64,000 nucleotides of DNA from the NCBI RefSeq assembly GCF_964019625.1, contig NZ_OZ026458.1:186001-250000 (forward strand), written 5' to 3'. Under the pieces are notes generated by a model that had not been told where the DNA came from, searched no databases, and saw only the letters and a list, made by a program, of their open reading frames with translations. This DNA comes from Spiroplasma endosymbiont of Diplazon laetatorius (GTDB lineage: Bacteria > Bacillota_I > Bacilli_A > Mycoplasmatales > Mycoplasmataceae). The position numbers were made by a program, and so were the translations under genes. Shown one piece after another: positions 37,539-39,254 of this stretch (position 1 is its first letter; every line of letters starts with the position of its first letter).

Positions 37539-39254
37539 ATGGCAGATATTAAATTTATGGCCCTTGGTGGTCAAGACGAAAGAGGAAAAAATATTTTTGT
37601 TATCAGTGTTAATGATAACCTATATATATTTGATGCAGGGATTAAATTCCCTGAAAGAAGTGTTTTAGGAATAGATGTAATAATACCTAACTTCGAATAC
37701 TTAAAAGCTAATGCTAAAAAAATTAAAGGAATATTCCTTTCAAATCCAAGTTCAAACAACTCTGGCGCAATAAGTTATATTTTAAGAGAGATAGATGTAC
37801 CGGTTTATTGTAATGAACTTACAACTACAATATTAAAATACAGAAACATGAAATATAGAATCAAAAACAGAGAAAACAACTTCAAAATAATAAATCATAA
37901 AGATGTTGTTTCGTTTGGTGATGTTAAAATTGAAGCCTTTAGAACTACAGCTGCTTTCCCAGAATCATTTGGATTTGCAATGCATACTGAAGATGGTGTT
38001 ATTGTTTATGCTGGAGATTACATAATTGATGGAAATGAGCAATCATATTTTTCAACAGATATGAATCACTTAAACCAAATAGCACAAAAAGGTGTTCTTG
38101 CTTTAATTAGTGATGCTGAGTATGCTTCAAGAATCGGTTATACAGTACCAAATCACAGAATTGATAAATTCATAGCAGCTCCTATGAAAGACAAAAAAAG
38201 ACGTTTAATCTTAGGAATGTTTGAAGAGGACGTATTTAAATTATTTGAAATAATTAAACAAGCTAAAGCAAATGATAGAAAAATAGCTGTATATGGAAAA
38301 ACAATTACAAAAGTAGTTGAATCAAAAGTAATACAACACAGTTTACAAATATCTGAAAAAGATATTATAAGTATTGAAGAATTTATGAAATCAGAAGACG
38401 GAATATTAATGTTAACTGGTGCAGGAGATCTTCTTTACACAAGGCTTGCTAAAATAGCTGCAGGAAATGATGATAAAGTGGAATTTACAGAAAATGATAC
38501 AATTATATTAGCAACACCTCCAGCAGCTGGAGTTGAAAAAAGACATGCAGAAATCTTAGATGAACTTGCAAGAACTAATGCTAAATTAATTTCATTAAGT
38601 GATAAAAATATTTGATCAATGAGAGCTAGTTATGAAGATATTAAATTAATGACTAGAATAATGAAACCCAAATCATTTATACCAATAAAAGGTTTATACA
38701 AAGACTTCTTAAGTGCAGAAAGAGCTGCAATTGAAGCTGGGGTTGAAAAGAAAAATATTCAATTAATTAATAATGGGCAAATTTTAAAAATATCTGAAGA
38801 AGGTAAATTAATTATCGCATCTGACTCAATTAAAACAGCTGATGTTTATGTTGATGGTATAGGTGTTGGAGATATTGGTGCTGTTGTTTTAAATGAAAGA
38901 AAACAATTAGCAACTGATGGAGCTGTAATAATTGGAGCAAATGTTAACAGCAAAACTAAAGACTTAATTTCCTTAATTGATATACAAATGCGTGGAGTTA
39001 TTTACATTACTGAAGAAAATCCAATTTTCAAATTAATGCAAAAACAAATCATAGATATTTTAGATAAATATAAAAATGAATCTAAAACAAATCCAAATGC
39101 ATATGATTTAAATGCAATTAAAAAAGAAATAGTTTCAAGAATTAGAACAACTCTAAAACAAGAAACTGGTAAACAACCAATAGTGTTAGTTATTATTAAT
39201 GAATTAGATGGTTCATTCTTTGAACCAAGACAAAACAAACCAAGAAACTCATAG
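37539..39254 (+). CDS. RNase J paralog lacking catalytic metal ligands
   Basis: 571 residues with the full RNase J layout: metallo-beta-lactamase core, beta-CASP domain and C-terminal domain. Family matches include FDAGIKFPE, GIDVIIPNFEYL, IKPKSFIPI-like and VYVDGIGVGDIG. But the metal site is gone. The HxHxDH motif reads NPSSNN (residues 69-74), the TTH motif reads TTA, the SGHA region reads MRAS and PIHGEY reads PIKGLY. It should therefore be inactive as a nuclease and may act as a partner of an active RNase J, as J2 does with J1 in Firmicutes. One TGA (38616-38618) reads as Trp. Confidence 0.9.

Follow-up and report, generated by a model that had tools for sequence, protein, structure and literature searches.

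The window, the 64,000-nucleotide stretch of DNA analysed here (positions 186001-250000 in an assembly whose one contig has 979,438 bases), encodes an RNase J2 (RnjB) orthologue that has lost six of the seven metal ligands of the RNase J family. This protein is best read as a pseudonuclease that would join the cell's intact RNase J1 in a complex and support its 5'-3' exonuclease work without cutting RNA, a reading to which a probability of roughly 0.7 is assigned. The same loss extends across the J2 proteins of the order (Mycoplasmatales in the GTDB lineage), in which the gene is retained under purifying constraint next to a J1 with a complete active site.

The gene and its identity

Sequence comparison points to Mesoplasma, Williamsoniiplasma, and Spiroplasma as the nearest named relatives, and genetic code 4 is needed to read the 571-codon rnjB frame, which table 11 would break into two ORFs. 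The locus comprises the following features:

37431..37458, + strand: promoter-like TTTACT-16-TATAAT 5' of rnjB, weak in that shuffled sequences hold more such sites than the region itself
37524..37530, + strand: Shine-Dalgarno-like AAAGGAG ahead of the rnjB ATG
37539..39254, + strand: rnjB, RNase J2 orthologue lacking the metal site, 571 aa, code 4
38613..38615, + strand: TGA read as Trp359 of rnjB, where table 11 splits the ORF
38886..39206, + strand: RNase_J_C domain (PF17770), residues 450-556
39346..42291, + strand: ftsK/spoIIIE, the 3' neighbour of rnjB

On the opposite strand just 5' of rnjB lies a 100-aa ORF (37055-37357, minus strand) that, judged by eye, resembles a single rhodanese domain.

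The protein corresponds to RNase J end to end, as the first-pass annotation had proposed: NCBIfam TIGR00649 matches residues 4-553 with 414.5 bits (cut-off 400), the RNase J2 of PDB entry 6k6w matches residues 3-556 with E=1e-86, and PF22505 and PF17770 both score above their cut-offs. The RMMBL match falls under its cut-off and no match to Pfam Lactamase_B is reported even at E<=10; the full-length beta-lactamase/beta-CASP/C-terminal architecture of the family is nonetheless present.

Three lines of evidence, namely the tree, the best structural matches, and the linkage to ftsK/spoIIIE, identify the protein as the J2 orthologue. In the maximum-likelihood tree, J1 forms one clade that includes the B. 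subtilis and staphylococcal J1 proteins, followed by the S. epidermidis J2, the other Bacilli J2s, and the J2s of the order; the window protein falls in the J2 clade and outside J1, with the S. epidermidis J2 in between (starred branches). The split between J2 and J1 is well supported in this tree, which was built by a quick method with SH-aLRT support only and in which the long branches of the order J2s leave their exact internal branching unsure. The AlphaFold2 model of the window J2 (mean pLDDT 83 from an 18-sequence alignment, with residues 441-459 below 50) finds its best structural matches in crystal structures of RNase J2, with Z 47.5 and an rmsd of 2.1-2.6 across some 430 residues, against Z 45.2 for J1, and the top Foldseek match is chain A of 9a5v, a crosslink-based model of the RNJ2-RNJ1 complex. 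The tree and the best matches to J2 also rule out a late, independent duplicate of J1. Moreover, rnjB lies directly 5' of ftsK/spoIIIE, an arrangement found in many Spiroplasma-type relatives and some distant families and presumably shared with Bacillus and Staphylococcus, in which we take the J2 gene to adjoin ftsK/spoIIIE. Three marks of the J2 group are found here: grouping with J2 and not with J1, the ftsK/spoIIIE neighbour (in the Mollicutes), and an intact J1 paralogue in the same genome.

This paralogue (L002, 804230-805804) is the only other RNase J detected by a search of the whole genome; it carries 7/7 ligands and the intact motifs THGHEDH, NHS, GDYKFD, and MHGEY, so that the second, intact copy for which the first reading asked does exist. 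The pairing is general: exactly two RNase J genes occur in 60/60 genomes of the organism's family, and of 60 relatives drawn from across the order, 59 have both paralogues, the exception being a genome that is 77% complete.

Loss of the active site across the order

The seven metal ligands of the family are H74, H76, D78, H79, H142, D164, and H390 in the numbering of S. epidermidis and B. subtilis J1 (PMC7864078). The window J2 has at these positions N69, S71, N73, N74, A138, D160, and K384, that is, it retains 1/7. The changes lie in three motifs, THGHEDH to SNPSSNN (H74 to N69, H76 to S71, D78 to N73, H79 to N74), TTH to TTA (H142 to A138), and PIHGEY to PIKGLY (H390 to K384), and extend to the beta-CASP motifs, in which FASN reads FEED, GRS reads GKT, TGSQGE reads TGAGDL, and HTSGH reads IWSMR; the phosphate-recognition residues H364, S366, and H368 belong to these beta-CASP motif regions. 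The altered positions and the region considered below for partner contact map as follows:

37743..37760, + strand: NPSSNN in place of HGHEDH, residues 69-74, with ligands H74, H76, D78, and H79 lost
37950..37952, + strand: A138 at metal ligand H142
38016..38018, + strand: D160, the sole ligand retained (D164), kept in 48/59 order J2s
38220..38231, + strand: residues 228-231, at which FEED replaces the FASN of the beta-CASP part
38688..38690, + strand: K384 at metal ligand H390, with Lys in 47/59 order J2s
38841..38921, + strand: residues 435-461 (DVYVDGIGVGDIG..NERKQLATDG), linker and start of the C-terminal domain, with conservation above that of random columns and including positions aligned with a D. 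radiodurans dimer-contact site

Neither the ligand set that marks an RNase J enzyme (HxHxDH with H142, D164, and H390) nor the beta-CASP 5'-phosphate/RNA motifs are thus found in the window J2. The first-pass annotation had read HxHxDH as NPSSNN, TTH as TTA, and PIHGEY as PIKGLY, all three exactly, and the full list of metal and catalytic residues that it called for bears out its description of a catalytically dead protein at the level of sequence, with six ligands lost and D164 kept; the loss of the beta-CASP motifs is an addition that it had missed. Judged from these residues, the window J2 would have no nuclease activity. D160 and K384 may instead form a charge pair at the former metal position, a pairing proposed because their J1 counterparts are ligands of one shared metal and because the D/K combination recurs in 44/59 order J2s; in one clade, D is replaced by N and K by Q in four sequences, which count as a single event and hence as weak support.

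The same condition prevails in the order. Among 59 order J2 sequences, equivalent to 37 once near-duplicates are removed, zero ligands are kept in 7, one in 47, and two in 5, compared with 7/7 in 13/13 order J1s, and the loss of the metal site is not due to chance since it is common to all 59 J2s examined. Outside the order, most of 18 J2s with an HGHEDH-like motif keep 6/7 ligands and lack H390 alone, and a second set of 10, placed beside the order J2s, mainly keeps 3-5/7 with Lys at H390 in most. These intermediate J2s, from sister orders, indicate a path in which H390 was lost first, Lys at this position became common before the histidines went, and the order itself brought the full loss. 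A non-Mollicute J2 (L101, G122) reads PKGKTNS for HGHEDH and keeps 1/7 ligands among J2s that keep 3-5, so that the metal site was lost a second time there, independently of the order. Two others elsewhere in the tree (L089 and L108) read IIPIKGE, with Lys at H390 and much of the metal site otherwise kept, and from these sequences the change of H390 to Lys seems to have arisen more than once. Two further J2s, L043 (G053) and L044 (G040), carry an insertion near residue 425, ahead of the C-terminal domain.

Loss of the site is not accompanied by decay of the gene. In comparisons with 19 relatives, J2 has a dN/dS of 0.02-0.16 inside the genus (0.02-0.06 in the nearest pairs) and 0.19 against the outgroup genome, compared with 0.01-0.09 and 0.12 for J1, the values for more distant pairs being rough as dS is about 1 or above. 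Amino-acid change is somewhat faster than in J1 (median dN ratio J2/J1 of 1.5), a point in favour of a pseudogene, but the low dN/dS within the genus, the open frame in essentially all genomes, and retention even in reduced genomes, one of 580,076 bp, dismiss this explanation almost completely. The strong conservation of a dead copy claimed at first reading accordingly holds. Its comparison with J2, as a more extreme case, can be made sharper: the copy is itself the J2 orthologue, and its extreme state is shared by the entire order.

Proposed role of the copy lacking the metal site

Under the favoured reading, the order J2 would bind the intact J1 of the same cell, hold or stabilise the active oligomer, thereby aiding the 5'-3' exonuclease activity of J1, and itself cut no RNA. 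Precedents come from the Firmicute enzymes: in S. aureus, a J2 active-site mutant grows as the wild type while the deletion strain is sick, from which its authors proposed that J2 acts chiefly as a structural component (PMC3937233); in B. subtilis, J1 and J2 form heterodimers and tetramers (PMC4419217). Against it counts the finding in S. epidermidis that the J1-J2 affinity is low and J2 is monomeric (PMC7864078). By analogy, binding of J2 to J1 is likely in Mollicutes as well, and J1 would presumably be stimulated or stabilised by it. Residues 44, 46, 439, 459, and 460, aligned with a D. radiodurans dimer-contact site, exceed random columns in conservation (p~0.013), a weak test given few, glycine-rich residues and contacts transferred by alignment offset from another species (PMC10119312). 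In the same J2s, conservation is not above random columns at the ligand positions, nor above average for the C-terminal domain as a whole.

The most serious competitor, itself unlikely, is that J2 was repurposed, the old cleft now serving as a ligand- or RNA-binding site of a regulator or of a ribosome or degradosome adaptor that acts independently of J1. The motifs SNPS.N, FEED, ATPPxPG, and PxKGLY are conserved within the family at the old active-site positions, and Lys occupies the H390 position in 47/59; since FEED, ATPPxPG, and PxKGLY are family-specific, they might signal a novel function separate from that of J1 and weigh against the partner role. However, these cleft motifs vary between the families of the order, the 5'-phosphate and RNA motifs are gone with acidic residues at FASN, and the mean net charge is +2 in J2 vs +15 in J1. 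With the RNA motifs and the positive charge of J1 both lost, RNA is less likely to be bound in the former channel. Of the two roles put forward by the first-pass annotation, the structural partner thus stands as the better supported, with the partnership itself deduced indirectly, and the RNA-binding regulator recedes.

Far less probable is an enzyme that is active after all, whether shifted residues provide the ligands or it uses a one-metal site like that described for the S. epidermidis J2 (PMC7864078). Most order J2s do retain D164, but the S. epidermidis J2 ligands H76, H78, H80, H144, and E166 align with N, S, N, A, and D in the window J2, and among Mollicute J2s conservation reaches 85% at no His or Cys position. 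H177, H206, H336, and C91 are conserved in the family, none at a ligand position. A migrated metal site is rejected, as no His or Cys is conserved order-wide.

A wider version of the pseudonuclease reading is more tentative, at somewhat under even odds: throughout the order, J2 may be an obligatory non-catalytic subunit in which a Lys384-Asp160 pair replaces the metal centre, forming with J1 a live/dead pair like CPSF-73/CPSF-100 that is needed in minimal cells.

What was already known includes the structural J2 as a proposal, the presence of J1 and J2 in all Mollicutes, both taken as possibly active nucleases (PMC4014445), and the retention of RnjB in the Syn3.0 minimal cell, where it was noted as unexpected (PMC4993169). 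Among the 60 family genomes, no J2 of the Mycoides group was recognised that would link the present set to Syn3.0 directly. The loss of the active site throughout Mollicute J2s appears to be new: in a search of open-access literature on Mollicute J2 activity, MG423, MPN621, and MMSYN1_0257, no paper noting a dead site was found. The nuclease activity of RNase J2 is weak in Bacillus and Staphylococcus but potent in S. mutans, and its purpose is debated; an order from which the active site has been removed everywhere and in which the gene is kept, very small genomes included, allows structure and catalysis to be told apart and the purpose of J2 to be tested directly. The J2 genes of the order are mis-described as ribonucleases in databases and reviews, and RNA-decay models of minimal cells may therefore include a nuclease that is not there. 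The ribonuclease family model TIGR00649 passes the dead window J2 above its cut-off (414.5 vs 400), and ribonuclease mis-annotation therefore spreads.

Comparison with known systems

An example of this annotation is the M. genitalium J2 (L046, G047:C1:529550-531217, minus strand), which shares about 30% identity with the window J2 and keeps D164 alone of the seven ligands. Its gene, MG_RS02530, which we take to be MG423, the namesake of TIGR00649, bears the annotation of a beta-CASP ribonuclease in the RNase J family, yet lacks 6/7 ligands. The gene is identified as MG_RS02530 because base 635 (codon 212) of the latter lies at 530,583, which fits a start at 531217 on the minus strand exactly; selection with pristinamycin yielded a mutant with Ser212Leu in this protein (PMC13148045).

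RNase J1 (RnjA) shares domain order and fold with the window J2 and differs from it in having 7/7 ligands and all beta-CASP motifs. In eukaryotes, CPSF-100 and IntS9 are the non-catalytic partners of CPSF-73 and IntS11, and they follow an analogous logic of a dead metallo-beta-lactamase/beta-CASP copy beside a live one; they belong to another branch of the superfamily and to 3'-end processing, and the structural comparison (Z ~28) covers the fold of their catalytic relatives alone. In Bacillus and Staphylococcus, RNase J2 (RnjB) is orthologous to the window J2 by the tree and is its best structural match; its centre is likewise altered, though in part, and a structural role has been proposed for it (PMC3937233). 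Unlike the window J2, in which a single Asp remains and the beta-CASP motifs are gone, the staphylococcal J2 retains HGHEHA, H144, E166, and one Mn ion (PMC7864078). By this analogy, the J2 of the order looks like the natural end-point, made permanent, of the structural role proposed for the S. aureus protein.
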